NCBI GenBank assembly: GCA_028753945.1
Contig: JAPNXP010000002.1
Span: forward strand, 11,346,001-11,410,000
Direction: 5' to 3'
Origin: Hexactinellida sp. DTS-2022
Taxonomy: Eukaryota; Porifera; Hexactinellida
DNA length: 64,000 nt
A program made the position numbers and the translations under genes. Positions 30,931-56,872 of the stretch are shown one piece after another. Every line of letters begins with the position of its first letter. Within the stretch, counting starts at the first letter, position 1. Below the pieces are notes generated by a model, which was not told the origin of the DNA, made no database searches, and saw nothing but the letters and a program-made list of their open reading frames with translations.

Positions 30931-33900
30931 GAGCATAAAATCAAGAAAAACCAATTTTTGTGTGCAATGACTTTCAAAAAGTATGAAATAGATAAATTAG
31001 TGGTTTTAGGACGTTTCCAGTTGTTTATTTTGATGATAAGGAGAATTTATCATCAAATATGTCCTAACAGTGCCAATGAAACGCCACTAACTCAATTAAC
31101 ATTCATTTAAGAGCCTAATAGCAAGAAAAACCTATTTGTATATGCAATGACTGTCAAAAACTCCCAAACTGATAAATTAATTGATTAAGGACGTTTCCAG
31201 TTGTTTCGTTATATGATAAGAAGAATTTATCATCAAATATGTCCTAACAGTCCCAATGAAACTCCACTAACTCAATTATCATTCATTTAAGAGCTTAATT
31301 TCGAGAAAAACCAAATTTTTATGTGCAATGAATGTAAAAAACTCCCAAATTGATAAATTAATGGATTAAAGACGTTTCCAGTTGTTTCGTTTGATGATAA
31401 GAAGAATTTATCATCAAATATGTCCAAACAGTGCCAATGATACTCCACTAACTCAATTAACATTCTTTTAAGAGCCTAATATCAAGAAAAACCTATTTTT
31501 GTGTGCAATGACTGTCAAAAACTCCCAAATTGATAAATTAATGGATTAAGAACGTTTCCAGTTGTTTCGTTTGATGATGAGAAGAATATATCATCAAATA
31601 TGTCCTAACAGTGCCAATTAAACTCCACTAACTCTATTAACATTCATTTAAAAGCCTAATATCAAGAAAACCCAATCTTTATGTGCAATGACTGTCAAAA
31701 ACTCCCAAATTGATAAATTAATGGATTAAGGACGTTTCCAGTTGTTTCGTTTGATGATAAGATGAATTTATCATCAAATAGGTCCTAACAGTCCCAATGA
31801 AACTCTTCTAACTCAATAAACATTCATTTAATAGCCTAATATCGAGAAAAACAAATTTTTGTGTGCAATGTCTTGAAAAACTCAGAAATTGATAAATTAG
31901 TGTTTTAAGGATGTTTCCATTTGTTTCTTTTGATAATAAGAAGTATTTACCCTAAAGAGAACTAACAGTGCCACTGAAACTCCACTCACTCAATTTACAT
32001 TCATTTAAGAGCCCAATATCAAGTAAAACCAATTTTTGTGTGCAATGATTGTCAAAAAGTCTCAAATAGATAAATTAGTGGTTTAAGGACGTTTCCAGTT
32101 GTTTCTTTTAATGATAAGAAGTGTTTATCATAGAAAGTTTCATAACAGTTAGACTGAAACTCTTCTAACTCAATTAACTTTCAATTAATAGCCTAATATT
32201 GAGAAAAACCAATTTTTGTGTGCAATGACTATCAAAAAGTCTCAAATAGATAAATTAGTGGTTTAAGGACGTTTCCAGTTGTTTCTTTTGATGATAAGAA
32301 GTGTTTATCATAGAAAGTTTCATAACAGTTAGACTGAAACTCTTCTAACTCAATTAATATTCATTTAAGAGCCTAATATCAAGAAAAACCAATTTTATGT
32401 GCAATGACTGTCAAAAACTCCCAAATTGATAAATTAAATGTTCAAGGACGTTTCCAGTTGTTTCTTTTGATGATATGAAGTATTTAGAGTCAAAGTAGTC
32501 CTAGAAGTGCCACTTATACTCCATTAACTCAATTGACTTTCATTTATGAGCCTAATATGAAGAAAAACCAATTTTTGTGTGCAATGACTGTCAAAAACTC
32601 CCAAATTGATGAATTAATGGATTAAGGACGTTTAAAGTTGTTTGGTTAGATGATAAGAAGAATTTATCATCAAATATGTCCTAACAGTGCAAATTAAACT
32701 CCACTAACTCATATGACATTCATTTAAGAGCCTAATATCAAGAAAAACCAATTTTTATGTGCAATGACTGTCAAAAACTCCCAAATTGATAAATTAATGG
32801 ATTAAGGACGTTTCCAATTGTTTCGTTTTATGATAAAAAGAATTTATCATCAAATATGTCCTAACTGTGCTACTGAAACTCCACTCAACCAATTAACATT
32901 CTTTTAATAGCCTAATATCGAGAAAAACAAATTTTTGTCTGCAATGTATTGAAAAACTCATAAATTGATAAATTAGTGTTTTAAGGATGTTTCCATTTGT
33001 TTCTTTTAGAGATTTGAAGTGATTATCATAGAAAGTTTCCTAACAGTTAAACAGAAACTCCACTAACTCAATTAACATTCATTTAAGAGCCTAAAATCAA
33101 GAAAAACCAATTTTTGTGTGCAATGACTTTCAAAAAGTATGAAATAGATAAATTAGTGGTTTAAGGACATTTCCAGTTGTTTCTTTTGATGATAAGGAGA
33201 ATTTATCATCAAATATGTCCTAACAGTGCCAATGAAACGCCACTAACTCAATTAACATTCATTTAAGAGACTAATAGCAAGAAAAACCTATTTGTATATG
33301 CAATGACTGTCAAAAACTCCCAAACTGATAAATTAATGGATTAAGGACGTTTCCAGTTGTTTCGTTTGATGATAAGAAGTATTTATCATCAAAAGTGTCC
33401 TAACAGTCCCAATGAAACTCCACTAACTCAATTATCATTCATTTAAGAGCTTAATATCGAGAAAAACCAAATTCTTATGTGCAATGACTGTCAAAAACTC
33501 AGAAATTGATAAATTGTTGTTTTAAGGTCGTTTCCATTTGTTTCTTTTGATGATTCGAAGAATTTATCATTAATTAGTCCTAACAGTCCCAATGAAACTC
33601 TTCTAACTCAATTAACAATCATTTAATAGCCTAATATCGAGAAAAACAAATTTTTGTCTGCAATGTATTGAAAAACTCAGAAATTGATAAATTAGTGTTT
33701 TAAGGATGTTTCCATTTGTTTCTTTTAGAGATAAGAAGTGATTATCATAGAAAGTTTCCTAACAGTTAAACAGAAACTCCACTAACTCAATTAACATTCA
33801 TTTAAGAGCCTAATATCAAGAAAAACCAATTTTTGTGTGCAATGACTTTCAAAAAGTATGAAATAGATAAATTAGTGGTTTAAGGACGTTTCCAGTTGTT

Positions 33901-36900
33901 TCTTTTGATGATAAGGAGAATTTATCATCAAATATGTCCTAACAGTGCCAATGAAACGGCACTAACTCAATTAACATTCATTTAAGAGCCTAATAGCAAG
34001 AAAAACCTATTTGTATATGCAATGACTGTCAAAAACTCCCAAACTGATAAATTAATTGATTAAGGACGTTTCCAGTTGTTTCGTTTTATGATAAGAAGAA
34101 TTTATCATCAAATATGTCCTAACAGTCCCAATGAAGCTCCACTAACTCAATTATCATTCATTTAAGAGCTTAATATCGAGAAAAACCAAATTTTTATGTG
34201 CAATGAATGTAAAAAACTCCCAAATTGATAAATTAATGGATTAAGGACGTTTCCTGTTGTTTCGTTTGATGATAAGAAGAATTTATCATCAAAAGTGTCC
34301 TAACAGTGCCACTGATACTCCACAAACTCAATTAACATTCATTTGAGAGCAAAATATTGAGAAAAACCAATTTTCGTGTGCAATGACTGTTAAAAACTCC
34401 CAAATTGATAAATTAATGGTTTAAGGATGTTTCAAATTGTTTTTTTAATAATAAGAAGAATTTATCATCAAATATGTCCAAACAGTGCCAATGATACTCC
34501 ACTAACTCAATTAACATTCTTTTAAGAGCCTAATATCAAGAAAAACCAATTTTTGTGTGCAATGACTGTCAAAAACTCCCAAATTGATAAATTAATGGAT
34601 TAAGAACGTTTCCAGTTGTTTCGTTTGATGATAAGAAGAATATATCATCAAATATGTCCTAACAGTGCCAATTAAACTCCACTAACTCTATTAACATTCA
34701 TTTAAAAGCCTAATATCAAGAAAACCCAATCTTTATGTGCAATGACTGTCAAAAACTCCCAAATTGATAAATTAATGGATTAAGGACGTTTCCAGTTGTT
34801 TCGTTTGATGATAAGATGAATTTATCATCAAATAGGTCCTAACAGTCCCAATGAAACTCTTCTAACTCAATAAACATTCATTTAATAGCCTAATATCGAG
34901 AAAAACAAATTTTTGTGTGCAATGTCTTGAAAAACTCAGAAATTGATAAATTAGTGTTTTAAGGATGTTTCCATTTGTTTCTTTTGATAATAAGAAGTAT
35001 TTACCCTAAAGAGAACTAACAGTGCCACTGAAACTCCACTCACTCAATTTGCATTCATTTAAGAGCCCAATATCAAGTAAAACCAATTTTTGTGTGCAAT
35101 GATTGTCAAAAAGTCTCAAATAGATAAATTAGTGGTTTAAGGACGTTTCCAGTTGTTTCTTTTAATGATAAGAAGTGTTTATCATAGAAAGTTTCATAAC
35201 AGTTAGACTGAAACTCTTCTAACTCAATTAACTTTCAATTAATAGCCTAATATTGAGAAAAACCAATTTTTGTGTGCATTGACTATCAAAAAGTCTCAAA
35301 TAGATAAATTAGTGGTTTAAGGACGTTTCCAGTTGTTTCTATTGATGATAAGAAGTATTTATCTTCAAAAGTGTCCTAACAGGGCCAATGAAACTCCAAT
35401 AACTCAATTAACATTCATTTAAGAGTCTATTATCGAAATTAACCAATTTTTCGGTGCAATTACTCAAATTCTCCCAAATTGATAAATTAATGGATTAAGG
35501 ACGTTTCCAGTTGTTTCGTATGATGATAAGAAGAATTTATCATCAAATATGTCCTAACAGTGCAAATTAAACTCCACTAACTCATATGACATTCATTTAA
35601 GAGCCTAATATCAAGAAATCCATTTTTGATGTGCAATGACTGTCAAAAACTCCCAAATTGAAAAATTAATGGATTAAGGACGTTTCCAGTTGTTTCGTTT
35701 GATGATAAGAAGAATTTAACATCAAATAAGTCCTAACATTCCCAATGAAACAACACTAACACAATTATAATTCATTTAAGAGCCATATATCAAGAAATCC
35801 ATTTTTGATGTTCAATGACTGTCAAAAACTCCCAAATTGATAAATTAATGGATTAAGAACGTTTCCAGTTGTTTGGTTTGATGATAAGAAGAATATATCA
35901 TCAAATATGTCCTAACAGTTAAACAGAAACTCCACTAACTCAATTAACATTCATTTAAGTGCCTAATATCAAGAAAAACCAATTTTTGTGTGCAATGACT
36001 TTCAAAAAGTCTGAAATAGATAAATTAGTGGTTTAAGGACGTTTCCAGTTGTTTCTTTTGATGATAAGGAGAATTTATCATCAAATATGTCCTAACAGTG
36101 CCAATGAAACGCCACTAACTCAATTAACATTCATTTAAGAGCCTAATAGCAAGAAAAACCTATTTTTATATGCAATGACTGTCAAAAACTCCCAAATTGA
36201 TAAATTAATGGATTAAGGACGTTTCCAATTGTTTCGTTTGATGATAAAAGAATTTATCATCAAATATGTCCTAACTGTGCCACTGAAACTCCACTCACTC
36301 AATTAACATTCTTTTAATAGCCTAAAATCGAGAAAAACCAATTTCTGTGTGCAATGACTGTCAAAAACTCAGAAATTGATAAATTGTTGTTTTAAGGTCG
36401 TTTCCATTTGTTTCTTTTGATGATTCGAAGAATTTATCATCAAATATGTCCTAACATTGCCAATGAAACTCCACTAACTCAATTATCATTCATTTAAGAG
36501 CCTAATATCAAGAAAAACCATTTTTGATGTGCAATGACTTTAAAAACTCCCAAATTGATAAATTAATGGATTAAGGACGTTTCCAGTTGTTTCGTTTGAT
36601 GATAAGAAGTATTTATCATCAAAAGTGTCCTAAAAGTGCCACTGAAACTCCACAAAGTCAATTAACAATCATTTAATAGCCTAATTTGGAGAAAAACCAA
36701 TTTCTGTGTGCAATGACTGTCAAAAACTCAGAAATTGATAAATGTTGTTTTAAGGTCGTTTCCATTTGTTTCTTTTGATGATTCGAAGAATTTATCATTA
36801 ATAAGTCCTAACAGTCCCAATGAAACTCTTCTAACTCAATTAACATTCATTTAATAGCTTAATATCAAGAAAAACAAATTTTTGTCTGCAATGTATTGAA

Positions 36901-39900
36901 AAACTCAGAAATTGATAAATTAGTGTTTTAAGGATGTTTCCATTTGTTTCTTTTAGAGATAAGAAGTGATTATCATAGAAAGTTTCATGACAGTTAGAAT
37001 GAAACTCTTCTAACTCAATTAATATTCATTTAAGAGCTTAATATCAAGAAAAACCTATTTTATGTGCAATGACTGTCAAAAACTCCCAAATTGATAAATT
37101 AATGGTTCAAGGACGTTTCCAGTTGTTTCTTTTGATGATATGAAGTATTTAGAGTCAAAGTAGTCCTAGAAGTGCCACTTATACTCCATTAACTCAATTG
37201 ACTTTCATTTATGAGCCTAATATGAAGAAAAACCAATTTTTGTGTGCAATGACTGTCAAAAACTCCCAAATTGATAAATTAATGTATTAAGGACGTTTAA
37301 AGTTGTTTGGTTAGATGATAAGAAGTATTTATCATCAAAAGTGTCCTAACAGTGCCAATAAACTCCACTATCTCAATTTACATTTATTTAATAGACTAAT
37401 ATCGTGAAAAACTAATTTTAGTCTGCAATGACTGTCAAAAACGCCAAAATTGATAAATATATGGTTTAGGGACGTTTCCAGTTGTTTCTATTGATGTTAA
37501 GAAGTATTTATCTTCAAAAGTGTCCTAACAGGGCCAATGAAACTCCAATAACTCAATTAACATTCATTTAAGAGTCTAATATCGAAATAAAACAATTTTT
37601 CGGTGCAATGACTCAAATTCTCCCAAATTGATAAATTAATGGATTAAGGACGTTTCCAGTTGTTTCGTATGATGATAAGAAGAATTTATCATCAAATATG
37701 TCCTAACAGTGCAAATTAAACTCCACTAACTCATATGACATTCATTTAAGAGCCTAATATCAAGAAATCCATTTTTGATGTGCAATGACTGTCAAAAACT
37801 CCCAAATTGAAAAATTAATGGATTAAGGACGTTTCCAGTTGTTTCGTTTGATGATAAGAAGAATTTAACATCAAATAAGTCCTAACATTCCCAATGAAAC
37901 AACACTAACACAATTATAATTCATTTAAGAGCCAAATATCAAGAAAAAACAATTTTTATGTGCAATGACTGTCAAAAACTCCCAAATTGATAAATTATTG
38001 GATTAAGGACGTTTCCAAATTGTTTCGTTTTATGATAAAAAGAATTTATCATCAAATATGTCCTAACTGTGCCACTGAAACTCCACTCACTCAATTAACA
38101 TTCTTTTAATAGCCTAAAATCGAGAAAAACCAATTTCTGTGTGCAATGACTGTCAAAAACTCAGAAATTGATAAATTGTTGTTTTAAGGTCGTTTCATTT
38201 GTTTCTTTTGATGATTCGAAGAATTTATCATCAAATATGTCCTAACATTGCCAATGAAACTCCACTAACTCAATTATCATTCATTTAAGAGCCTAATATC
38301 AAGAAAAACCATTTTTGATGTGCAATGACTGTCAAAAAGTCCCAAACTGATAAATTAATTGATTAAGGACGTTTCCAGTTGTTTCGTTTTATGATAAGAA
38401 GAATTTATCATCAAATATGTCCTAACAGTCCCAATGAAACTTCACTAACTCAATTATCATTCATTTAAGAGCTTAATATCAAGAAAAACCAAATTTTTAT
38501 GTGCAATGACTGTCAAAAACTCCCAAATTGATAAATTAATGGATTAAGGACGTTTCCAGTTGTTTCGTTTGATGATATGAAGAATTTATCATCAAAAGTG
38601 TCCTAACAGTGCCACTTATACTCCACAAACTCAATTAACATTCATTTGAGAGCCTAATATTGAGAAAAACCAATTTTCGTGTGCAATGACTGTTAAAAAC
38701 TCCCAAATTGATAAATTGATGGTTTAAGGATGTTTCAAATTGTTTTTTTAATAATAAGAAGAATTTATCATCAAATATGTCCTAATAGTGCCAATGATAC
38801 TCCACTAACTCAATTAACATTCTTTTAAGAGCCTAATATCGAGAAAAACAAATTTTTGTCTGCAATGTATTGAAAAACTCAGAAATTGATAAATTAGTGT
38901 TTTAAGGATGTTTCCATTTGTTTCTTCTAGAGATAAGAAGTGATTATCATAGAAAGTTTCCTAACAGTTAAACAGAAACTCCACTAACTCAATTAACATT
39001 CATTTAAGAGCCTAATATCAAGAAAAACCATTTTTGATGTGCAATGACTTTAAAAACTCCCAAATTGATAAATTAATGGATTAAGGACGTTTCCAGTTGT
39101 TTCGTTTGATGATAAGAAGTATTTATCATCAAAAGTGTCCTAAAGGTGCCACTGAATCTCCACAAAGTCAATTAACAATCATTTAATAGCCTAATTTCGA
39201 GAAAAACCAATTTCTGTGTGCAATGACTGTCAAAAACTCAGAAATTGATAAATGTTGTTTTAAGGTCGTTTCCATTTGTTTCTTTTGATGATTCGAAGAA
39301 TTTATCATAAATAAGTCCTAACAGTCACAATGAAACTCTTCTAACTCAATTAACATTCATTTAATAGCCTAATATCGAGAAAAAACAAATTTTTGTCTGC
39401 AATGTATTGAAAAACTCAGAAATTTATAAATTAGTGTTTTAAGGATGTTTCCATTTGTTTCTTTTAGAGATAAGAAGAAATTATCATAGAAAGTTTCCTA
39501 ACAGTTAAACAGAAACTCCACGAACTCAATTAACATTCATTTAAGTGCCTAATATCAAGAAAAACCAATTTTTGTGTGCAATGACTTTCAAAAAGTCTGA
39601 AATTGATAAATTAGTGGTTTAAGGACGTTTCCAGTTGTTTCTTTTGATGATAAGGAGAATTTATCATCAAATATGTCCTAACAGTGCCAATGAAACGCCA
39701 CTAACTCAATTAACATTCATTTAAGAGCCTAATAGCAAGAAAAACCTATTTTTATATGCAATGACTGTCAAAAACTCCCAAATTGATAAATTAATGGATT
39801 GAGGACGTTTCCAATTGTTTCGTTTGATGATAAAAAGAATTTATCATCAAATATGTCCTAACTGTGCCACTGAAACTCCACTCACTCAATTAACATTCTT

Positions 39901-42900
39901 TTAATAGCCTAAAATCGAGAAAAACCAATTTCTGTGTGCAATGACTGTCAAAAACTCAGAAATTGATAAATTGTTGTTTTAAGGTCGTTTCCATTTGTTT
40001 CTTATGATGATTCGAATAATTTATCATCAAATATGTCCTAACATTGCCAATGAAACTACACTAACTCAATTAACATTCATTTAAGAGCCTAATATCAAGA
40101 AAACCCAATCTTTATGTGCAATGACTGTCAAAAACTCCCAAACTGATAAATTAATTGATTAAGGACGTTTCCAGTTGTTTCGTTTGATGATATGAAGAAT
40201 TTATCATCAAAAGTGTCCTAACAGTGCCACTTATACTCCACAAACTCAATTAACATTCATTTGAGAGCCTAATATTGAGAAAAACCAATTTTCGTGTGCA
40301 ATGACTGTTAAAAACTCCCAAATTGATAAATTGATGGTTTAAGGATGTTTCAAATTGTTTTTTTAATAATAAGAAGAATTTATCATCAAATATGTCCTAA
40401 TAGTGCCAATGATACTCCACTAACTCAATTAACATTCTTTTAAGAGCCTAATATCAAGAAAAACCTATTTTTGTGTGCAATCACTGTAAATACACCCAAA
40501 TTGATAAATTAATGGATTAAGGACGTTTCCAGTTGTTTAGTTTGATGATAAGAAGTATTTATCATCAAAAGTGTCCTAAAAGTGCCACTGAAACTCCACA
40601 AAGTCAATTAACATTCATTTAATAGCCTAATTTCGAGAAAAACCAATTTCTGTGTGCAATGACTGTCAAAAACTCAGAAATTGATAAATTGTTGTTTTAA
40701 GGTCGTTTCCATTTGTTTCTTTTGATGATTCGAAGAATTTATCATTAATAAGTCCTAACAGTCCCAATGAAACTCTTCTAACTCAATTAACATTCATTTA
40801 ATAGCCTAATATCGAGAAAAACAAATTTTTGTCTGCAATGTATTGAAAAACTCAGAAATTGATAAATTAGTGTTTTAAGGATGTTTCCATTTGTTTCTTT
40901 TGATGATAAGGAGAATTTATCATCAAATATGTCCTAACAGTGCCAATGAAACGCCACTAACTCAATTAACATTCAATTAAGAGCCTAATAGCAATAAAAA
41001 CCTATTTTTATATGCAATGACTGTCAAAAACTCCCAAATTGATAAATTAATGGATTAAGGACGTTTCCAATTGTTTCGTTTGATGATAAAAAGAATTTAT
41101 CAACAAATATGTCCTAACAGTCCCAATGAAACTTCACTAACTCATTTATCATTCATTTAAGAGCTTAATATCAAGAAAAACCAAATTTTTATGTGCAATG
41201 ACTGTCAAAAATTCCCAAATTGATAAATTAATGGATTATAGACGTTTCCAGTTGTTTCGAATGATGATATGAAGAATTTATCATCAAAAGTGTCCTAACA
41301 GTGCCACTTATACTCCACAAACTCAATTAACATTCATTTGAGAGCCTAATATTGAGAAAAACCAATTTTCGTGTGCAATGACTGTTAAAAACTCCCAAAT
41401 TGATAAATTGATGGTTTAATTATGTTTCAAATTGTTTTTTTAATAATAAGAAGAATTTATCATCAAATATGTCCTAATAGTGCCAATGATACTCCACTAA
41501 CTCAATTAACATTCTTTTAAGAGCCTAATATCAAGAAAAACCTATTTTTGTGTGCAATCACTGTAAATACACCCAAATTGATAAATTAATGGATTAAGGA
41601 CGTTTCCAGTTGTTTAGTTTGATGATAAGAAGTATTTATCATCAAAAGTGTCCTAAAAGTGCCACTGAAACTCCACAAAGTCAATTAACATTCATTTAAT
41701 TGCCTAATTTCGAGAAAAACCAATTTCTGTGTGCAATGACTGTCAAAAACTCAGAAATTGATAAATTGTTGTTTTAAGGTCGTTTCCATTTGTTTCTTTT
41801 GAAGATTCGAAGAATTTATCATTAATAAGTCCTAACAGTCCCAATGAAACTCTTCTAACTCAATTAACAATCATTTAATAGCCTAATATCGAGAAAAACA
41901 AATTTTTGTCTGCAATGTATTGAAAAACTCAAAAAATTGATAAATTAGTGTTTTAAGGATGTTTCTATTTGTTTCTTTTAGAGATAAGAAGTGATTATCA
42001 TAGAAAGTTTCCTAACAGTTAAACAGAAACTCCACTAACTCAATTAACATTCATTTAAGAGCATAATATCAAGAAAAACCAATTTTTGTGTGCATTGACT
42101 TTCAAAAAGTCTGAAATAGATAAATTAGTGGTTTAAGGACGTTTCCAGTTGTTTCTTTTGATGATAAGGAGAATTTATCATCAAATATGTCCTAACAGTG
42201 CCAATGAAACGCCACTAACTCAATTAACATTCATTTAAGAGCCTAATAGCAATAAAAACCTATTTTTATATGCAATGACTGTCAAAAACTCCCAAATTGA
42301 TAAATTAATGGATTAAGGACGTTTCCAATTGTTTCGTTTGATGATAAAAAGAATTTATCATCAAATATGTCCTAACTGTGCCACTGAAACTCCACTCACT
42401 CAATTAACATTCTTTTAATAGCCTAAAATCGAGAAAAACCAATTTCTGTGTGCAATGACTGTCAAAAACTCAGAAATTGATAAATTGTTGTTTTAAGGTC
42501 GTTTCCATTTGTTTCTTTTGATGATTCGAAGAATTTATCATCAAATATGTCCTAACATTGCCAATGAAACTCCACTAACTCAATTATCATTCATTTAAAA
42601 GCCTAATATCCAGAAAAACCATTTTTAATGTGCAATGACTTTAAAAACTCCCAAATTGATAAATTAATGGATTAAGGACGTTTCCAGTTGTTTCGTTTGA
42701 TGATAAGAAGTGTTTATCATCAAAAGTGTCCTAAAAGTGCCACTGAAACTCCACAAAGTCAATTAACATTCATTTAATAGCATAATTTCGAGAAAAACCA
42801 ATTTCTGTGTGCAATGACTGTCAAAAAGTCAGAAATTGTTAAATTAGTGTTTCAAGGATGTTTCCATTTGTTTCTTTTAGAGATAAGAAGTGATTATCAT

Positions 42901-44320
42901 AGAAAGTTTCCTAACAGTTAAACAGAAACTCCACTAACTCAATTAACATTCTTTTAATAGCCTAAAATCGAGAAAAACCAATTTCTGTGTGCAATGACTG
43001 TAAAAACTCAAAAATTGATAAATTGTTGTTTTAAGGTCGTTTCCATTTGTTTCTTTTGATGATTCGAAGAATTTATCATCAAATATGTCCTAACATTGCC
43101 AATGAAACTACACTAACTCTATTAACATACATTTAAGAGCCTAATATCAAGAAAACCCAATCTTTATGTGCAATGACTGTCAAAAACTCAGAAATAGATA
43201 ATTAGTGGTTTAAGGACCTTTCCAGTTGTTTCTTTTGATGATAAGGAGAATTTATGATCAAATATGTCCTAACAGTGCCAATGAAACGCCACTAACTCAA
43301 TTAACATTCATTTAAGAGCCTAATAGCAAGAAAAACCTATTTTTATATGCAATGACTGTCAAAAACTCCCAAATTGATAAATTAATGGATTAAGGACGTT
43401 TCCAATTGTTTCGTTTGATGATTCGAAGAATTTATCATCAAATATGTCCTAACATTGCCAATGAAACTCCACTAACTCAATTATCATTCATTTAAAAGCC
43501 TAATATCCAGAAAAACCATTTTTAATGTGCAATGACTTTAAAAACTCCCAAATTGATAAATTAATGGATTAAGGACGTTTCCAGTTGTTTCGTTTGATGA
43601 TAAGAAGTATTTATCATCAAAAGTGTCCTAAAAGTGCCACTGAAACTCCACAAAGTCAATTAACATTCATTTAATAGCATAATTTCGAGAAAAACCAATT
43701 TCTGTGTGCAATGACTGTCAAAAAGTCAGAAATTGTTAAATTAGTGTTTCAAGGATGTTTCCATTTGTTTCTTTTAGAGATAAGAAGTGATTATCATAGA
43801 AAGTTTCCTAACAGTTAAACAGAAACTCCACTAACTCAATTAACATTCTTTTAATAGCCTAAAATCGAGAAAAACCATTTTCTGTGTGCAATGACTGTAA
43901 AAACTCAAAAATTGATAAATTGTTGTTTTAAGGTCGTTTCCATTTGTTTCTTTTGATGATTCGAAGAATTTATCATCAAATATGTCCTAACATTGCCAAT
44001 GAAACTACACTAACTCTATTAACATACATTTAAGAGCCTAATATCAAGAAAACCCAATCTTTATGTGCAATGACTGTCAAAAACTCAGAAATAGATAAAT
44101 TAGTGGTTTAAGGACCTTTCCAGTTGTTTCTTTTGATGATAAGGAGAATTTATGATCAAATATGTCCTAACAGTGCCAATGAAACGCCACTAACTCAATT
44201 AACATTCATTTAAGAGCCTAATAGCAAGAAAAACCTATTTTTATATGCAATGACTGTCAAAAACTTCCAAATTGATAAATTAATGGATTAAGGACGTTTC
44301 CAATTGTTTCGTTTGATGAT
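30931..44320 (+). repeat. Zone C: distinct, more diverged monomer subfamily
   Basis: From about 30930 the dominant variants change: gataaggagaatttatc, gaaacgccactaac, cctatttttatatgcaatg, gatgattcgaagaattt, and the unusual gagataagaagtgattatcatag with acagttaaacagaaac. The gataaggaga marker recurs at 31035, 33191, 33910, 36063, 39649, 40905, 42163, 43240 and 44138, spacings that fit 12, 4, 12, 20, 7, 7, 6 and 5 monomers. No fixed higher-order unit spans the zone. Monomers differ more from one another than in zone A, consistent with an older or less homogenised tract. Confidence 0.82.
42518..44312 (+). repeat. Tandem duplication of a five-monomer block (897 bp)
   Basis: 42518-43414 and 43415-44312 correspond at an offset of 897-898. 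They share the taatatccagaaaaacc, agcataatttcgag, gtttcaaggatg and acatacatttaag variants. A few differences are visible: gtgtttatc against gtatttatc near 42709 and 43606, a one-base indel at gata(a)attag near 43200, and ccaattt against ccatttt. This is the youngest-looking event in zone C. Confidence 0.88.
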
Positions 44321-45398
44321 AAAAAGAATTTATCATCAAATATGTCCTAACTGTGCCACTGAAACTCCACTATCTAGATTAACATTCATTTAAGAGCCTA
44401 ATATCGAAAAGAACCAATTTTTGTTTGCAATTACTTTCAAAAACTCCCAAATTAATGAATTAATGGATTATGGACGTTTGAAGTTGTTTGGTTTGATGAT
44501 AAGAATAATCTATCATCAAATATGTCCTAATAGTGCCAATGAAACTCCACTAACTCAATTAACATTCATTTAAGAGCCTCATATAAAGAAAAACCAATTT
44601 TTGTGTGCAATGACTGTCAAAGACTCCCAAATTGATAAATTAATGGTTTAAGGACGTTTCCATTTGTTCCTTTTGATGATAATAAGTATTTAGAGTCAAT
44701 GTTGTAATAACAGTGCCACTGATTCTCCACTAACTCAATTAACAGTCATTTAAGTGCCTAATATCAAGAAAAATCAATTTTTGTGTCAATCACTGTCAAA
44801 ATCTCCCAAATTGATAAATTAATCGTTTAAGGACGTTTCCATTTGTTTCTTTTGATGAAAATAAGTATTTAGAGTCAAAGTTGTCCTAACTGTGCCACTG
44901 AAACTCCACTACTCTATTAATATTGATTTAAGATCCTTATATCGAGAAAAACCAATTTTTGGTGCAATGAATGTCAAAAACCCAGAAATTGATAAATTAG
45001 TGTTTTAAAGACTTTTCCAGTTTTTTCTTTTGATGATATGATGTAATTATAATCAAAGTTGTCCTAACAGTGCCACTGAAACTCCACTAACGCAATTAAC
45101 ATTCATTTAAGAGCCTAATATCAAGAAAAACCAATGTTTGTGAGAAATGACAGTCAAAAACTCCCAAATTGATAAATTAATGGATTAAGGAGGTTTCCAG
45201 TTGTTTCTTTTGATGATAAGAAGTATTTATCATCAAAAGTGTCCTAACAGGGCCAATGAAACTCCTCTAACTCAATTAACATTCATTTAAGAGCCTAATA
45301 TAGAGAAAAACCAATTCTTGTGTGCAATGACTGTCAAAAACCCTCAAATAAATAAATTAGTGCTTTACGACGTTTCCAGTTGTTTCTTTTGATGATAA
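44321..45398 (+). repeat. Zone D: diverged monomers next to the inversion
   Basis: About six monomers that differ strongly from one another, with variants such as tttagagtcaatgttgt, gtaattataatcaaag, tgatttaagatcc and gagaaatgacag. I see no higher-order match within the window. The last monomer (about 45220-45398), with ccaattcttgtgtgc and ctcaaataaataaattag, resembles a reverse-array monomer near 46660-46790 more than its forward neighbours. Confidence 0.78.
45207..45239 (+). other. Example of the monomer dyad (13-bp arms, 7-base loop)
   Basis: cttttgatgataa at 45207-45219 and its exact reverse complement at 45227-45239 flank gaagtat. Many forward monomers keep 8-13 bp of this symmetry. Others weaken it: gatgatatgaag loses the innermost pair, and gataataagaag introduces a mismatch. 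On single-stranded DNA it could form a hairpin, and in duplex form a small cruciform. Confidence 0.88.
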
Positions 45399-45440
45399 AC
45401 ACTCCTTATCATCAAAAGAAACAACTGGAAACGTCGTAAA
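45364..45440. other. Array inversion junction: 35-bp perfect palindrome arms
   Basis: The left arm 45364-45398 and right arm 45406-45440 are exact reverse complements (35 bp), separated by acactcc. The left arm ends a forward monomer; the spacer and right arm are those of a normal reverse monomer. Beyond the arms the two sides continue as homologous but different monomer variants, offset at once by a one-base indel (gtgcttta against gtggtttta). It is therefore a meeting of two array orientations rather than a simple copied hairpin. The breakpoint falls inside the monomer's own dyad. It could be a real chromosomal inversion or, less likely, an assembly join. Confidence 0.93.
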
Positions 45441-47200
45441 ACCACAGAATTATCTATTTGAGAGTTTTTGAAAGTCATTGCACCCAAAAATTAGTTTTTC
45501 TTGATATTAGGCTCTTGAATGAATGTTAATTGAGTTTCTGGAGTTTCAGTGGCACTGTTAGTACATAATCGATGATAAATTCTTCTTATCATCAAACTAA
45601 ACACCAGGAAACGTCCTTAATCCATTAATTTATCATTTTCTGAGTTTTTGACTGTCATTGCACACAAAAATTGGTTTTTCTCTATTTTAGGCTCTTAAAT
45701 GAATGTTAATTGCGTTAGTAGAGTTTCGATTTTATTGTTAGGACACTTTTGTTGATAAACACTCCTTATCATCAAAAGAAACAACCGGAGACGTCGTAAA
45801 ACCACTGATTTATCTATTTGAGAGTTTTTGACAGTCATTGCACACAAAAATTAGTTTTTCTTGATTTTAGGCTCTTGAATGAATGTTAATTGAGTTTGTG
45901 GAGTTTCAGTGGCACTGTTAGGACATAATTGATGATAAACACTCCTTATTTTCAAAAGAAACACCAGGAAACGTCCTTAATCCATTAATTTATCAATTGG
46001 GAGTTTTTGACAGTCATTGCACACAAAAATGTTTTTCTCTATTTTAGGCTCTTAAATGAATGTTAATTGCGTTTTTAGAGTTTCAGTTTTATTGTTAGGA
46101 CGCTTTTGATGATAAACAGCTGGAAACATCCTTAAAACACTAATTTATCATTTTCTGAGTTTTTGACAGTCATTGCACACAAACATTGGTTTTCCTCGAT
46201 ATAAGTCACTTAAATGAATGTAAATTGAATGAGTGGAGTTTCAGTGGCACTGTTAGGACATAATTGATGATCAATTCTTCTTATCATCAAACTAAACACC
46301 TGGAAACGTCCTTAATCCATTAATTTATCAATTGGGAGTTTTTGACAGTCATTGCACCCAAAATTGGTTTTCTCGATATTAGGCTATTAAATGAATGTAA
46401 ATTGAGTTAGTGGAGTTTCATTGGCACTATTAGGACATATTTGATGATAAATACTTCTTATCATCAAACAAACAACTGGAAACGTCCTTAATCCATTAAT
46501 TTATCAATTTGTGAGTTTTTGACAGTCATTGCACACAAAAATTGGATTTCTCTATGGTAGGCTATTAAATGAATGTAAATTGAGTGAGTGGAGTATCAGA
46601 ATTATTGCTAGGACACTTTTGAAGATAAACACTACTTATCATCAAAAGAAACAACTGGAAACGTCGAATAACACTAATGTATTTATTTGAGAGTTTTTGA
46701 CAGTCATTGCACACAAGAATTGGTTTTTCTCTATATTAGGCTCTTAAATGAATGTTAATTGAGTTAGTGTAGTTTCATTGGCACTGTTAGGACACTTTTG
46801 ATGATAAACACTCATTATCATCAAAAGAAACAACTGGAAACGTCGTAAAACCTCTGATTTATCTATTTGAGAGTTTTTGACAGTCATTAACCCAAAATTA
46901 GTTTTTCTTGTTATTAGGCTCTTGAAAGAATGTTAATTGCGTTAGTAGAGTTTCGATTTTATTGTTAGGACACTTTTGATGATAAACACTCCTTATCATC
47001 AAACTAAACTCCTGGAAACGTCCTTATTCCATTAATTTATCAATTGGGAGTTTTTGACAGTCATTGCACATAAAAATTGTTTTTTCTCTATTTTAGGCTC
47101 TTAAATGAATGTTAATTGCGTTAGTAGAGTTTCAGTTTTATGTTAGGACACTTTTTATGATAAACACTCCTTATCATCAAAAGAAACAGCTGAAAACATC
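45406..47200 (-). repeat. Zone E: diverged reverse monomers beside the inversion
   Basis: About ten reverse monomers with many private differences: ctattttaggctc, atggtaggctatt, gagtatcagaattattg, and a shortened unit near 46095-46125 where gataaacagctgg lacks the usual actccttatcatc segment. Types P, Q and R can already be told apart, but I see no regular higher-order order. Some variants recur further in, for example atggtaggctatt near 48160 and 57120. Confidence 0.78.
46795..46827 (-). other. Monomer dyad in the reverse array
   Basis: cttttgatgataa at 46795-46807 and ttatcatcaaaag at 46815-46827 enclose acactca. The same arms recur through the reverse array with loops of 7, 6 (cactcc) or 5 (cactc) bases. 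The stem is thus kept while loop length varies. Confidence 0.88.
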
Positions 47201-47914
47201 CTTAAAACACTATTTTATCATTTTCTGAGTTTTTGACAGTCATTGCACACAAACATTGGTTTTTCTCGATATAAGTCTCTTAAATGAATGTAAATTGAAT
47301 GAGTGGAGTTTCAGTGGGACAGTTAGGACTCTTTTGATGATAACACTCCTTATCATCAAAAGAAACAACTGGAAACGTCGTAAAACCTCTGATTTATCTA
47401 TTTGAGAGTTTTTGACAGTCATTGCACCCAAAAATTAGTTTTTCTTGATATTAGGCTCTTGAATGAATGTTAATTGAGTTTCTGGAGTTTCAGTGGCACT
47501 GTTAGTACATAATCGATGATAAATTCTTCTTATCATCAAACTAAACACCAGGAAACGCCTTAATCCATTAATTTATCAATTGGGTGTTTTTGACAGTCAT
47601 TGCACACAAAAAATGTTTTTTCTCTATTTTAGGCTCTTAAATGAATGTTAATTGCGTTTTTAGAGTTTCAGTTTTATTGTTAGGACGCTTTTGATGATAA
47701 ACACTCCTTATCATCAAAAGAAACAGCTGGAAACATCCTTAAAACACTAATTTATCATTTTCTGAGTTTTTGACAGTCATTGCACACAAACATTGGTTTT
47801 CCTCGATATAAGTCACTTAAATGAATGTAAATTGAATGAGTGGAGTTTCAGTGGCACTGTTAGGACATAATTGATGATAAATTCTTCTTATCATCAAACT
47901 AAACACCTGGAAAC

Positions 47915-50900
47915 GTCCTTAATCCATTAATTTATCAATTGTGAGTTTTTGACAGTCATTGCACCCAAAATTGGTTTTCTCGATATTAGGCTATTAAATG
48001 AATGTAAATTGAGTTAGTGGAGTTTCATTGGCACTATTAGGACTTATTTGATGATAAATACTTCTTATCATCAAACGAACAACTGGAAACGTCCTTAATC
48101 CATTAATTTATCAATTTGTGAGTTTTTGACAGTCATTGCACACAAAAATTGGATTTCTCTATGGTAGGCTATTAAATGAATGTAAATTGAGTGAGTGGAG
48201 TATCAGAATTATTGCTAGGACACTTTTGAAGATAAATACTACTTATCATCAAAAGAAACAACTGGAAACGTCGTAAAACCTCTGATTTATCTATTTGAGA
48301 GTTTTTGACAGTCATTGCACCCAAAAATTAGTTTTTCTTGATATTAGGCTCTTGAATGAATGTTAATTGAGTTTCTGGAGTTTCAGTGTCACTGTTAGTA
48401 CATAATCGATGATAAATTCTTCTTATTATCAAACTAAACACCAGGAAACGTCCTTAATCCATTAATTTATCATTTTCTGAGTTTTTGACAGTCATTGCAC
48501 ACAAACATTGGTTTTTCTCGATATAAGTCTCTTAAATGAATGTAAATTGAATGAGTGGAGTTTCAGTGGCACTGTTAGGACACTTTTGATGATAAACACT
48601 CCTTATCATCAAAAGAAACAACTGGAAACGTCGAATATCACTAATTTATTTATTTGAGAGTTTTTGACAGTCATTGCACACAAGAATTGGTTTTTCTCTA
48701 TATTAGGCTCTTAAATGAATGTTAATTGAGTTAGTGTAGTTTCATTGCCACTGTTAGGACACTTTTGATGATAAATACTCCTTATCATCAAAAGAAACAA
48801 CTGGAAACGACGTGAAACCTCTGATTTATCTATTTGAGAGTTTTTGACAGTCATTGCACACAAAAATTAGTTTTTCTTGATATTAGGCTCTTGAATGAAT
48901 GTTAAATGAGTTTGTGGAGTTTCGATTTTATTGTTAGGACACTTTTCATGATAAACACTCCTTATCATCAAAAGAAACAACTGGAGACGTCGTAAAACCA
49001 CTGATTTATCTATTTGAGAGTTTTTGACAGTCATTGCACACCAAAATTAGTTTTTCTTGATTTTAGGCTCTTGACAGAATGTTAATTAAGTTTGTGGAGT
49101 TTCAGTGGCACTGTTAGGACACTTTTGATGATAAACACTCCTTATCATCAAAAGAAACAGCTGGAAACATCCTTAAAACACTAATTTATCATTTTCTGAG
49201 TTTTTGACAGTCATTGCACACAAACATTGGTTTTTCTCGATATTCGTCACATAAATGAATGTAAATTGAATGAGTGGAGTTTAGTGACACTGTTAGGACT
49301 ATTTTGATGATAACACTCCTTATCATCAAAAGAAACAACTGGAAACGTCGTGAAACCTCTGATTTATCTATTTGAGAGTTTTTGACAGTCATTGCACCCA
49401 AAAATTAGTTTTTCTGGATATTAGGCTCTTGAATGAATGTTAATTGAGTTTCTGGAGTTTCAGTGGCACTGTTAGTACATAATCGATGATAAATTCTTCT
49501 TATCATCAAACTAAACACCAGGAAACGTCCTGAATCCATTAATTTATCAATTGGGAGTTTTTGACAGTCATTGCACACAAAAAATCTTTTTTCTCTATTT
49601 TAGGCTCTTAAATGAATGTTAATTGCGTTAGTAGAGTTTCAGTTTTATTGTTAGGACACTTTTGATGATATTCACTCCTTATCATCAAAAGAAACAATAG
49701 GAAAAATCCTTAAAACACTAATTTATCATTTTCTGAGTTTTTGACTGTCATTGCACACAAACATTGGTTTTTCTCGATATAAGTCTCTTAAATGAATGTA
49801 AATTGAATGTGTGGAGTTTCAGTGGCACTGTTAGGACTCTTTTGATGATAACACTCTTATCATCAATAGAAACAACTGGAAACGTCGTAAAACCTCTGAT
49901 TTATCTATTTGAGAGTTTTTGAAAGTCATTGCACCCAAAAATTAGTTTTTCTTGATATTAGGCTCTTGAATGAATGTTAAATGAGTTTCTGGAGTTTCAG
50001 TGGCACTGTTAGTACATAATCGATGATAAAATCTTCTTATCATCAAACTAAACACCAGGAAACGTCCTTAATCCATTAATTTATCAATTGGGAGTTTTTG
50101 GCAGTCATTGCACACAAAAAATGTTTTTTCTCTATTTTAGGCTCTTAAATGAATGTTAATTGCGTTAGTAGAGTTTCAGTTTTATTGTTAGGAGACTTTT
50201 GATGATATACACTCCGTATCATCAAAAGAAACAGCTGGAAACATCCTTAAAACACTAATTTATCATTTTCTGAGTTTTTGACAGTCATTGCACACAAACA
50301 TTGGTTTTTCTCGATATAAGTCTCTTAAATGAATGTCAATTGAATGAGTGGAGTTTCAGTGGCACTGTTAGGACTCTTTTGATGATAAACACTCCTTATC
50401 ATCAAAAGAAACAACTGGACACGTCGTAAAACCACTGATTTCTCTATTTGTGAGTTTTTGACAGTCATTGCACACAAGAATTGGTTTGTCTCTATATTAG
50501 GCTCTTAAATGAATGTTAATAGAGTTAGTGTAGTTTCATTGGCACTGTTAGGACACTTTTGATGATAACACTCCTTATCATCAAAAGAAACAACTGGAAA
50601 CGTCGTAAAACCTCTGATTTATCTATTTGAGAGTTTTTGACAGTCATTGCACACAAAAATTAGTTTTTCTTGATATTAGGCTCTTGAATGAATGTTAATT
50701 GCGTTAGTAGAGTTTCAGTTTTATTGTTAGGACACTTTTGATGATAAACACTCCTTATCATCAAAATAAACAACTGGAAACGACGTAAAACCTCTGATTT
50801 ATCTATTTGAGAGTTTTTGACAGTCATTGCACACAAAAATTAGTTTTTCTTGATATTAGGCTCTTGAATGAATGTTAAATGAGTTTGTGGAGTTTCAGTG

Positions 50901-53100
50901 GCACTGTTAGTACATAATCGATGATAAATTCTTCTTATCATCAAACTAAACACCTGGAAACGTCCTTGTTCCATTAATTTATCAATTGGGAGTTTTTGAC
51001 AGTCATTGCACACAAAAATTGTTTTTTCTCTATTTTAGGCTCTTAATGAATGTTAATTGCGTTAGTAGAGTTTCTAGTTTTATGTTAGGACACTTTTGAT
51101 GATAAACACTCCTTATCATCAAAAGAAACAGCTGGAAACATCCTTAAAACACTAATTAATCATTTTCTGAGTTTTTGACAGTCATTGCACACAAACATTG
51201 GTTTTTCTCGATATAAGTCTCTTAAATGAATGTAAATTGAATGAGTGGAGTTTCAGTGGCACTGTTAGGACTCTTTTGATGATAACACTCCTTATCATCA
51301 AAAGAAACAACTGGAAACGTCGTAAAAACCTCTGATTTATCTATTTGAGAGTTTTTGACAGTCATTGCACACAAAAATTAGTTTTTCTTGATATTAGGCT
51401 CTTGAATGAATGTTAAATGAGTTTGTGGAGTTTCAGTGGCACTGTTAGTACATAATCGATGATAAATTCTTCTTATCATCAAACTAAACACCTGGAAACG
51501 TTCTTGTTCCATTAATTTATCAATTGGGAGTTTTTGACAGTCATTGCACACAAAAATTGTTTTTTCTCTATTTTAGGCTCTTAAATGAATGTTAATTGCG
51601 TTAGTAGAGTTTCTAGTTTTATGTTTGGACACTTTTGATGATAAACACTCCTTATCATCAAAAGAAACAACTGGAAACGTCGTAAAACCTCTGATTTATC
51701 TATTTGAGAGTTTTTGAAAGTCATTGCACACAAAAATTAGTTTTTCTTGATATTAGGCTCTTGAATGAATGTTAAATGAGTTTGTGGAGTTTCAGTGGCA
51801 CTGTTAGTACATAATCGATGATAAATTCTTCTTATCATCAAACTAAACACCTGGAAACGTTCTTGTTCCATTAATTTATCAATTGGGAGTTTTTGACAGT
51901 CATTGCACACAAAAATTGTTTTTTCTCTATTTTAGGCTCTTAAATGAATGTTAATTGCGTTAGTAGAGTTTCTAGTTTTATGTTTGGACACTTTTGATGA
52001 TAAACACTCCTTATCATCAAAAGAAACAGCTGGAAACATCCTTAAAACACTAATTTATCATTTTCTGAGTTTTTGACAGTCATTGCACACAAACATTGGT
52101 TTTTCTCGATATAAGTCTCTTAAATGAATGTAAATTGAATGTGTGGAGTTTCAGTGGCACTGTTAGGACTCTTTTGATGATAACACTCTTATCATCAATA
52201 GAAACAACTGGAAACGTCGTAAAACCTCTGATTTATCTATTTGAGAGTTTTTGAAAGTCATTGCAGCCAAAAATTAGTTTTTCTTGATATTAGGCTCTTG
52301 AATGAATGTTAAATGAGTTTCTGGAGTTTCAGTGGCACTGTTAGTACATAATCGATGATAAAATCTTCTTATCATCAAACTAAACACCAGGAAACGTCCT
52401 TATTCCATTAATTTATCAATTGGGAGTTTTTGACAGTCATTGCACACAAAAAATCTTTTTTCTCTTTTTTAGGCTCTTAAATGAATGTTAATTGCGTTAG
52501 TAGAGTTTCAGTTTTATTGTTAGGACACTTTTGATGATAAACACTCCTTATCATCAAAAGAAACAGCTGAAAACATCCTTAAGACACATTTTATCATTTT
52601 CTGAGTTTTTGAGAGTCATTGCACACAAACATTGGTTTTTCTCGATATAAGTCTCTTAAATGAATGTAAATTGAATGAGTGGAGTTTCAGTGGCACTGTT
52701 AGGACACTTTTGATGATAACACTCCTTATCATCAAAAGAAACAACTGGAAAAGTCGTGAAACCTCTGATTTATCCATTTGAGAGTTTTTGACAGTCATTG
52801 CACCGAAAAATTTGATTTTCTTGATATTAGGCTCTTGAATGAATGTTAATTGGGTTTCTTGAGTTTCAGTGGCACTGTTAGTACATAATCGATGATAAAT
52901 TCTTCTTTTCATCAAACTAAACACCAGGAAACGTCCTTAATCCTTAATTTATCAATTGGGAGTTTTTGACAGTCATTGCACACAAAAAATGTTTTTTCTC
53001 TATTTTAGGCTCTTAAATGAATGTTAATTGCGTTAGTAGAGTTTCAGTTTTATTGTTAGGAGACTTTTGATGATATACACTCCGTATCATCAAAAGAAAC
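47915..53100 (-). repeat. Segmental duplication, left copy (~5.2 kb)
   Basis: It corresponds to 56873-62237. Offsets are 8958 at the left part (47941 to 56899, 48241 to 57199, 49141 to 58099), 9496 in the middle (50041 to 59537, 50941 to 60437, 51481 to 60977) and 9137 at the right (52616 to 61753). Offset changes are +538 and -359, that is three and two whole monomers. Confidence 0.83.
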
Positions 53101-53104
53101 AGCT
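51135..53104 (-). repeat. 11-monomer higher-order unit, copy 1 (1970 bp)
   Basis: The monomer order read left to right is R P Q, P Q, R P Q, R P Q. The next unit follows at an offset of 1970-1971 bp (51311 to 53281, 51671 to 53641, 52616 to 54587). The edge is approximate. The first R monomer has attaatcatttt where copy 2 has atttatcatttt. Confidence 0.85.
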
Positions 53105-55074
53105 GGAAACATCCTTAAAACACTAATTTATCATTTTCTGAGTTTTTGAGAGTCATTGCACACAAACATTGGTTTTTCTCGATATAAATCTCTTAAATGA
53201 ATGTAAATTGAATGAGTGGAGTTTCAGTGGCACTGTTAGGACTCTTTTGATGATAACACTCCTTATCATCAAAAGAAACAACTGGAAACGTCGTAAAAAC
53301 CTCTGATTTATCTATTTGAGAGTTTTTGACAGTCATTGCACACAAAAATTAGTTTTTCTTGATATTAGGCTCTTGAATGAATGTTAAATGAGTTTGTGGA
53401 GTTTCAGTGGCACTGTTAGTACATAATCGATGATAAATTCTTCTTATCATCAAACTAAACACCTGGAAACGTTCTTGTTCCATTAATTTATCAATTGGGA
53501 GTTTTTGACAGTCATTGCACACAAAAATTGTTTTTTCTCTATTTTAGGCTCTTAAATGAATGTTAATTGCGTTAGTAGAGTTTCTAGTTTTATGTTTGGA
53601 CACTTTTGATGATAAACACTCCTTATCATCAAAAGAAACAACTGGAAACGTCGTAAAACCTCTGATTTATCTATTTGAGAGTTTTTGAAAGTCATTGCAC
53701 ACAAAAATTAGTTTTTCTTGATATTAGGCTCTTGAATGAATGTTAAATGAGTTTGTGGAGTTTCAGTGGCACTGTTAGTACATAATCGATGATAAATTCT
53801 TCTTATCATCAAACTAAACACCTGGAAACGTTCTTGTTCCATTAATTTATCAATTGGGAGTTTTTGACAGTCATTGCACACAAAAATTGTTTTTTCTCTA
53901 TTTTAGGCTCTTAAATGAATGTTAATTGCGTTAGTAGAGTTTCTAGTTTTATGTTTGGACACTTTTGATGATAAACACTCCTTATCATCAAAAGAAACAG
54001 CTGGAAACATCCTTAAAACACTAATTTATCATTTTCTGAGTTTTTGACAGTCATTGCACACAAACATTGGTTTTTCTCGATATAAGTCTCTTAAATGAAT
54101 GTAAATTGAATGTGTGGAGTTTCAGTGGCACTGTTAGGACTCTTTTGATGATAACACTCTTATCATCAATAGAAACAACTGGAAACGTCGTAAAACCTCT
54201 GATTTATCTATTTGAGAGTTTTTGAAAGTCATTGCAGCCAAAAATTAGTTTTTCTTGATATTAGGCTCTTGAATGAATGTTAAATGAGTTTCTGGAGTTT
54301 CAGTGGCACTGTTAGTACATAATCGATGATAAAATCTTCTTATCATCAAACTAAACACCAGGAAACGTCCTTATTCCATTAATTTATCAATTGGGAGTTT
54401 TTGACAGTCATTGCACACAAAAAATCTTTTTTCTCTTTTTTAGGCTCTTAAATGAATGTTAATTGCGTTAGTAGAGTTTCAGTTTTATTGTTAGGACACT
54501 TTTGATGATAAACACTCCTTATCATCAAAAGAAACAGCTGAAAACATCCTTAAGACACATTTTATCATTTTCTGAGTTTTTGAGAGTCATTGCACACAAA
54601 CATTGGTTTTTCTCGATATAAGTCTCTTAAATGAATGTAAATTGAATGAGTGGAGTTTCAGTGGCACTGTTAGGACACTTTTGATGATAACACTCCTTAT
54701 CATCAAAAGAAACAACTGGAAAAGTCGTGAAACCTCTGATTTATCCATTTGAGAGTTTTTGACAGTCATTGCACCGAAAAATTTGATTTTCTTGATATTA
54801 GGCTCTTGAATGAATGTTAATTGGGTTTCTTGAGTTTCAGTGGCACTGTTAGTACATAATCGATGATAAATTCTTCTTTTCATCAAACTAAACACCAGGA
54901 AACGTCCTTAATCCTTAATTTATCAATTGGGAGTTTTTGACAGTCATTGCACACAAAAAATGTTTTTTCTCTATTTTAGGCTCTTAAATGAATGTTAATT
55001 GCGTTAGTAGAGTTTCAGTTTTATTGTTAGGAGACTTTTGATGATATACACTCCGTATCATCAAAAGAAACAGC
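53105..55074 (-). repeat. 11-monomer higher-order unit, copy 2 (1970 bp)
   Basis: Near-identical to copy 1, with the same monomer order. After it the pattern changes to a run R, P-like (ggacacgtcg), P, P, Q that resembles 50200-51100, so the array switched template near 55075. Confidence 0.85.
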
Positions 55075-56872
55075 TGGAAACATCCTTAAAACACTAATTT
55101 ATCATTTTCTGAGTTTTTGACAGTCATTGCACACAAACATTGGTTTTTCTCGATATAAGTCTCTTAAATGAATGTCAATTGAATGAGTGGAGTTTCAGTG
55201 GCACTGTTAGGACTCTTTTGATGATAAACACTCCTTATCATCAAAAGAAACAACTGGACACGTCGTAAAACCACTGATTTCTCTATTTGTGAGTTTTTGA
55301 CAGTCATTGCACACAAGAATTGGTTTGTCTCTATATTAGGCTCTTAAATGAATGTTAATTGAGTTAGTGTAGTTTCATTGGCACTGTTAGGACGCTTTTG
55401 ATGATAACACTCCTTATCATCAAAAGAAACAACTGGAAACGTCGTAAAACCTCTGATTTATCTATTTGAGAGTTTTTGACAGTCATTGCACACAAAAATT
55501 AGTTTTTCTTGATATTAGGCTCTTGAATGAATGTTAATTGCGTTAGTAGAGTTTCAGTTTTATTGTTAGGACACTTTTGATGATAACACTCCTTATCATC
55601 AAAAGAAACAACTGGAAACGACGTAAAACCTCTGATTTATCTATTTGAGAGTTTTTGACAGTCATTGCACACAAAAATTAGTTTTTCTTGATATTAGGCT
55701 CTTGAATGAATGTTAAATGAGTTTGTGGAGTTTCAGTGGCACTGTTAGTACATAATCGATGATAAATTCTTCTTATCATCAAACTAAACACCTGGAAACG
55801 TCCTTGTTCCATTAATTTATCAATTGGGAGTTTTTGACAGTCATTGCACACAAAAATTGTTTTTTCTCTATTTTAGGCTCTTAATGAATGTTAATTGCGT
55901 TAGTAGAGTTTCTAGTTTTATGTTAGGACACTTTTGATGATAAACAATCCTTATCATCAAAAGAAACAGCTGGAAACATCCTTAAAACACTAATTAATCA
56001 TTTTCTGAGTTTTTGACAGTCATTGCACACAAACATTGGTTTTTCTCGATATAAGTCTCTTAAATGAATGTAAATTGAATGAGTGGAGTTTCAGTGGCAC
56101 TGTTAGGACTCTTTTGATGATAACACTCTTATCATCAATAGAAACAACTGGAAACGTCGTAAAACCTCTGATTTATCTATTTGAGAGTTTTTGAAAGTCA
56201 TTGCAGCCAAAAATTAGTTTTTCTTGATATTAGGCTCTTGAATGAATGTTAAATGAGTTTCTGGAGTTTCAGTGGCACTGTTAGTACATAATCGATGATA
56301 AAATCTTCTTATCATCAAACTAAACACCAGGAAACGTCCTTAATCCATTAATTTATCAATTGGGAGTTTTTGACAGTCATTGCACACAAAAAATCTTTTT
56401 TCTCTTTTTTAGGCTCTTAAATGAATGTTAATTGCGTTAGTAGAGTTTCAGTTTTATTGTTAGGACACTTTTGATGATAAACACTCCTTATCATCAAAAG
56501 AAACAGCTGAAAACATCCTTAAGACACATTTTATCATTTTCTGAGTTTTTGAGAGTCATTGCACACAAACATTGGTTTTTCTCGATATAAGTCTCTTAAA
56601 TGAATGTAAATTGAATGAGTGGAGTTTCAGTGGCACTGTTAGGACACTTTTGATGATAACACTCCTTATCATCAAAAGAAACAACTGGAAAAGTCGTGAA
56701 ACCTCTGATTTATCCATTTGAGAGTTTTTGACAGTCATTGCACCGAAAAATTTGATTTTCTTGATATTAGGCTCTTGAATGAATGTTAATTGTGTTTCTT
56801 GAGTTTCAGTGGCACTGTTAGTACATAATCGATGATAAATTCTTCTTTTCATCAGACTAAACACCAGGAAAC
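55075..56872 (-). repeat. Reverse monomers between the duplicated segments
   Basis: About ten monomers. The first half resembles 50220-51290 (ggacacgtcg, gtttgtctctatattagg and acgacgtaaaacc variants). The second half repeats the R-P-Q trimers of 52130-52920, with gtgtttcttgag in place of gggtttcttgag. It joins the right duplicated copy at the taatccattaatttatcaattgtg monomer. Confidence 0.75.

Follow-up and report, generated by a model that had tools for sequence, protein, structure and literature searches.

An orientation switch within the monomer dyad of a ~180-bp satellite in a hexactinellid sponge

The orientation switch and its surroundings

The window analysed here is a stretch of 64,000 nt (C11:11346001-11410000) from a genome of 112.4 Mb in 18 contigs, and by profile search it consists throughout of an AT-rich satellite with monomers of ~180 bp. 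The search gives 251 forward matches up to window position 45386 and then 105 reverse matches to position 64000, one of which is a 31-bp piece at the joint itself; no wrong-strand match was found on either side of the joint in the whole window. We refer to this change of orientation, near position 45386, as S1. Outside the window the same arrays continue, so that 389 forward matches (C11:11321013-11391386) adjoin 352 reverse matches (to 11454278). The features at the locus are as follows (window coordinates, strand, description).

1..45386, forward strand: forward satellite array, 251 profile matches of ~180 bp, with near-identical higher-order copies up to ~44340
44340..45194, forward strand: diverged monomers of the forward edge, ~0.85 kb, best match in the DNA compared 86.5% over the full length
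45195..45386, forward strand: patch of one monomer, whose nearest relatives are reverse-array monomers
45364..45398, forward strand: left arm of the perfect 35-bp inverted repeat
45399..45405, no strand: 7-nt centre ACACTCC, the dyad loop in its reverse-array form
45406..45440, reverse strand: right arm of the perfect 35-bp inverted repeat
45386..45418, no strand: monomer dyad at the joint, CTTTTGATGATAA, 7 nt, TTATCATCAAAAG, with the switch in its arms
45418..64000, reverse strand: reverse satellite array, running past the window to C11:11454278

The perfect 35-bp inverted repeat that the initial annotation described around ACACTCC is present at 45364-45440, and forward monomers do stop, and reverse monomers start, at this repeat, with a single strand on each side in the profile search. 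In a scan of the window for perfect inverted repeats (arms of at least 8 bp, spacer of at most 20), it is the longest of 184, the other 183 having arms of 8-14 bp. Dynamic programming on a two-profile alignment places the strand change at 45385-45390, where forward monomer position 178-3 is joined to reverse position 31-27. This interval falls within both arms of the dyad TTTGATGATAA-(7)-TTATCATCAAA, which confirms that the flip lies inside a dyad carried by normal monomers. No inverted self-homology of the consensus monomer is longer than the dyad (11 bp; runner-up 8 bp), which by computed folding forms an 11-bp hairpin, while the S1 junction forms one of 35 bp. The crossover is spanned by the 13-bp sequence CTTTTGATGATAA, which is common to both sides of S1.

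The 7-nt centre of S1 carries the reverse-array form of the dyad loop. This form, GATAAGGAGTG, has 71 reverse copies (S1's own counted) and 0 forward copies in the 264 kb studied, and 70 of the 71 lie within 11390-11420 kb (10-kb bins). The 35-mer arm occurs in the same 264 kb once in forward orientation, which is S1 itself, and 19 times in reverse orientation including the right arm of S1. Three further switches are located in the 264 kb, namely S2 (11454280), S3 (11473180) and S4 (11481745); S2 and S3 lie in the dyad and S4 outside it. S1 (forward to reverse) and S2 (reverse to forward) are neighbours.

Other features were seen in this satellite region. A 41-bp internal duplication gives rise to monomers of 219 bp (window 2129-2215, 5398-5484, 9383-9469 and six later places), which recur every 1.7-4.0 kb and serve as markers of higher-order copies in the forward array. 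Three mutually dissimilar inserts (C11:11291574-11292294, 11300410-11301992 and 11320271-11321012) lie at the same TTAA, at monomer position 157, and each, as read by eye, is bordered by TTAA at either end and carries short terminal inverted repeats; judging by eye, we take them to resemble miniature elements of the piggyBac or Kolobok type. Similar inserts are found at the TTAA of position 79 (11312085, 11481912 and 3994720), the last with an inverted repeat of ~22-24 bp. About 1 kb to the right of S2, the satellite is interrupted by a 4.7-kb insert (C11:11455342-11460077) with 183-bp direct ends that are 97.8% alike, and its frames, read by eye, look like those of a gypsy-type LTR retrotransposon. 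Long frames in the DNA read, again by eye, look like P-element-type transposases with a THAP domain and hint at an animal source.

Monomer types at the dyad switches

To compare the two sides, 1159 near-complete monomers from the 264 kb (C11:11266001-11530000) were clustered. Monomer classes are near-completely separated by strand. At a cut of 6.5%, 2 of the 112 classes with at least two members occur on both strands, and these two hold exactly the junction monomers of S1 and S3: the last forward monomer with four reverse monomers at S1, and the last forward monomer with one reverse monomer at S3. The same two are the both-strand classes at a cut of 8% (of 101), and the S3 pair is the single one at 5% (of 130); among the 58 classes with at least four members at 6.5%, one is on both strands.

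The last forward monomer at S1 ranks first among 673 forward monomers for leaning to the opposite array, with 95.5% identity to its best reverse relative versus 89.9% to its best forward relative. Likeness to the reverse array covers ~45195-45398 and reaches 95.6% over 204 bp (to C11:11394603-11394806), and the next-best relatives (95.1, 94.6 and 94.1%) are all reverse as well. The four near-equal relatives are 1.2-23.6 kb distant and therefore fix no donor. Strong reverse-type likeness ends near the preceding dyad. Further to the left, from ~44340 where the near-identical forward copies stop, single monomers of the diverged edge reach a best match of 91.6% in the DNA compared, and several sub-windows lean weakly to the reverse array. 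In all, 5 of 673 forward monomers resemble the reverse array more than their own, four of them located among the last six before S1.

Both monomers that meet at S1 are of reverse-array type; the one on the forward strand belongs to class p, the one on the reverse strand to class I. The initial annotation had taken S1 as a forward array joined to a reverse array, and this description is not supported, because the last forward monomer is of reverse type, both by its rank (1 of 673) and by its both-strand class; its type also rules out that unrelated forward and reverse arrays meet at S1. It had further been proposed that the switch joins two distinct monomers and is no fold-back copy. The monomers flanking S1 are 86.5% identical, near the background for mirrored pairs (83.3% ± 2.7), and the identity of mirrored monomer pairs at S1, S2 and S3 is not above background, which rejects a simple fold-back of the nearest monomer at these three switches. 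The proposal thus holds for the adjacent pair; however, a turned-round relative is involved, though not one of the adjacent monomer.

At S3, the last forward monomer also ranks first for opposite-array lean, here among 79 (97.1% versus 90.9%), and the final 400 bp of the forward side match, at 92.5%, a site located ~3.1 kb into the reverse array, as against 89.4% for the best of the forward places listed. One monomer further back, the sequence is nearer to its own array (94.4% versus 89.9% to the opposite one), and 9 of 39 reverse monomers at S3 are nearer to the forward array. Leaning is thus not uncommon on the reverse side, and sharing may have run either way. Five of these nine are consecutive (C11:11476067-11476964) and nearer to the forward array F2; this island may be the S3 edge copied in inverted orientation. 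S2 shows a weak lean to the opposite array and no clear patch.

Orientation switches elsewhere and their positions in the monomer

Satellite sequence was read over 264 kb around the window and over short stretches adding up to ~34 kb, which makes the following map of switches incomplete, as switches between these places can be missed. Two 18-mer scans, of which the first 100 of 352 and of 342 matches were listed, contain six strand changes among the matches listed: S5 (C11:2576653), S6 (2582228-2582588), S7 (11027316), S8 (11031680), S9 (11050450) and S11 (3986781). For switch calling in the fetched stretches, matches mostly covered by a better one or with a score below 3 were dropped. None of these six switches has both sides in the dyad. 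S10 (C12:1669111) does lie in the dyad but came from a scan aimed at it. At S5 two TTAA sites are joined exactly (CGTCCTTAAGGACG), and at S6 ~360 bp of non-satellite DNA (C11:2582228-2582588) stand between the TTAA at position 157 of a forward monomer and that of a reverse monomer. The two sides meet in mirror phase at S2 (9-11/10), S5 (157-161 on both sides), S6, S7 and S10. The breakpoints of the 11 switches examined differ from one another.

Genome-wide, an exact-flank pattern of the S1 joint type matches five places, of which three lie outside the satellite and two are S1 and S3, unlike each other; its reversed control matches two. The scan for joints of the opposite sense gives five places (reversed control, nine), of which, by reading, two are joints and three are ordinary forward monomers. 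These scans, which miss joints with changed flanks, thus recover, for each sense, two dyad joints within the satellite.

Among the ten switches found regardless of the dyad (S10 was excluded because its scan targeted the dyad), three lie in the dyad (S1, S2 and S3; P = 0.0039 with the sides independent, P = 0.039 with the sides shifted together). Both sides are at TTAA in three of the ten (S4, S5 and S6; P = 0.003 and 0.019). Moreover, the two sides meet at a similar phase of the monomer (mean offset 25.6, null 44.8, P = 0.009, n = 10). Break positions are not significantly clustered in a 10-bp window (P = 0.25). All of these values come from a small n with thresholds, and the TTAA test itself, chosen post hoc, and the reverse-side interval of S3 used in the null tests (-6 to 7) combines a computed value (173) with a by-eye reading (7). 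They supersede tests on nine switches, in which a plain binomial for three of nine in the dyad gave 0.17-0.22; under the shift-together null, the values were 0.038 with the dyad taken as positions 1-29 and 0.093 with it taken wider. On the idea that other switches would also fall in the dyad, the tally of three in ten gives P = 0.0039 or 0.039 depending on the null. The seven switches outside reject the dyad as the sole switch site, and dyad switching is at best an excess, not a rule.

Formation of the switch and known systems

What is observed at S1 is its anatomy, its loop form, the homology of the arms, the reverse type of the last forward monomer and the near-complete separation of classes by strand; from these we infer that a strand switch took place, as well as the direction that it took and the sequence of events. 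Judged from the assembly, the chances are about even that S1 is real and arose through inverted template switching, or through recombination to the same effect, between the two arms of the dyad hairpin, with array turnover afterwards. The exchange would have involved a class p monomer (now forward) and a class I monomer (reverse), both of reverse-array type, and would have left the reverse-array loop and the 13-bp shared arm at the joint. On the forward side, reverse-type likeness is strong over one monomer and weak for ~0.85 kb further. Separate higher-order amplification would since have rebuilt each side. Strand switching or recombination at the dyad had been suggested by the initial annotation, and at S1 the suggestion fares well, since the flip lies in the dyad and the 13-bp shared arm covers the crossover as predicted. 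Against the dyad reading, 7 of 10 switches are located elsewhere. The absence of fold-back at S1-S3 and the lack of a clear patch at S2 also count against a dyad mechanism, and gene conversion after the switch would yield an identical patch.

The main rival includes such a conversion. It supposes a large inversion through crossover between distant dyads, with S1 and S2 (C11:11454280) as the pair and the reverse-type last monomer as the result of later gene conversion, and we regard it as possible but unlikely. Because the dyad is its own inverted repeat, a dyad-dyad crossover turns the segment between and leaves one joint of each sense, and S1 and S2 are indeed neighbours of opposite sense, both in the dyad. 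Monomers near S2 lean to the opposite array as well (11453929, rank 1 of 351; 11454804, rank 1 of 79), by small margins of 0.011 and 0.028. However, nothing at the S2 end of the reverse array stands out as a partner for the left edge of S1, which over 870 bp finds its best match (86.5%) in the forward array, and the reverse-specific loop form is found beside S1 and not beside S2 (70 of 71 copies within 11390-11420 kb). A fusion of broken ends, for example of sister chromatids cut at the same site (the dyad hairpin loop or TTAA), followed by array turnover, would fit the mirror phase at S2, S5, S6, S7 and S10 and the exact TTAA-to-TTAA join of S5; nevertheless, the mirrored flanks at S1-S3 have only background identity and S1 itself is of unequal phase, with position 3 joined to 27 through arm homology, and we consider this explanation improbable.

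An assembly or library artefact, be it a fold-back chimera or a collapsed repeat, comes to mind in a region made of 64 kb of satellite. A fold-back chimera would be expected to be ~100% palindromic far past 35 bp, whereas the two sides of S1 diverge directly outside the 35-bp arms, where they are 83-87% alike, which makes a fold-back artefact unlikely. The forward edge (44340-45194), without a close copy in the DNA compared, could anchor reads, and other switches with different anatomy exist, so that an artefact of either kind seems quite improbable. We give least credence to a selected, functional macro-dyad with a conserved switch site, as proposed for Tribolium pericentromeres, which is very improbable here. 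The large-scale layout is similar, with tens of kb per direction; yet the 11 sites differ, while the inversion sites of Tribolium madens are 98.2-98.9% alike over thousands of copies (PMC13081366). Furthermore, the S1-type exact-flank pattern picks out in the satellite two places that are unlike each other, among five genome-wide (control, two).

A wider and rather doubtful extension of the reading by dyad exchange concerns the other switches. Each monomer might carry two kinds of flip-prone site, the dyad, where strand switching would leave a turned-round patch of about one monomer, and TTAA, where cuts would be joined inverted (S4, S5 and S6). Cutting by TTAA-specific transposases (piggyBac) leaves self-complementary ends. 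If this were true, the orientation of an array would be set by the repeat's own sequence and its transposons.

As far as the open-licence literature was searched, the origin of bidirectional satellite arrays is little described at base level, and no base-level survey of orientation switches within one satellite was found there in titles and the starts of abstracts. No match to satellite k-mers was found in paper text, and one satellite pattern gave 0 hits in a prokaryote genome collection and viral contigs. The 11 switch points described here belong to a single satellite and genome and lend themselves to comparison, which suggests rules open to testing: the two sides meet in matched phase, switches are in excess at the dyad and at TTAA, and at two dyad switches the last monomer is of opposite type. 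Should this prove true of more copies, the formation of switches would be readable from assemblies alone.

Several known systems share features with these switches. Pokey has TTAA as its target. As described in the portions available of the papers on Pokey and other TTAA-specific DNA transposons (PMC4912750, PMC2872659), it resembles the TTAA inserts here in inserting into a tandem repeat, a likeness that concerns the TTAA inserts and switches and not S1. In ODIRA, according to the accessible part of its description, template switching takes place at short interrupted inverted repeats with arms of 2-14 bp (PMC10766183), and S1 is similar in that a repeat of this kind (13-bp arms, 7-bp spacer) was already present where its joint lies. 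However, the ODIRA repeats mostly span 40-80 bp and the dyad here 33 bp, and ODIRA involves an origin, a triplication and a unit copied from the adjacent segment; S1 is likened to it by the joint sequence. A flank that is an inverted copy of the adjacent segment, as in ODIRA, is not seen at S1-S3, where mirror pairs are at background, and array turnover could have erased such a copy. The templated inverted insertions made by fold-back at yeast breaks, in the part of the account available (PMC11724301), are also short turned-round copies placed at a joint via microhomology; they are mostly ~5-34 bp long, whereas the S1 patch is ~200 bp and is no copy of the adjacent monomer.

The closest layout is that of the macro-dyads of the TmSat1/TmSat2 satellites of Tribolium madens, in which, as in this genome, satellite arrays of tens of kb change orientation and a degenerate or unusual subunit with hairpin potential lies at the inversion site (PMC13081366, available part). 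By that paper's own statement in the same part, macro-dyad symmetries are documented only in Tribolium (PMC13081366). The monomers here are ~180 bp, and they are set beside the Tribolium satellites by layout, not by sequence. The Tribolium madens sites are conserved and recurrent in the available text (PMC13081366), whereas the 11 found here are individual, some at the dyad and some at TTAA. A conserved, recurrent inversion site is thus a feature of Tribolium that is not seen among the 11 switches examined, and long sub-arrays of opposite orientation are a shared one.
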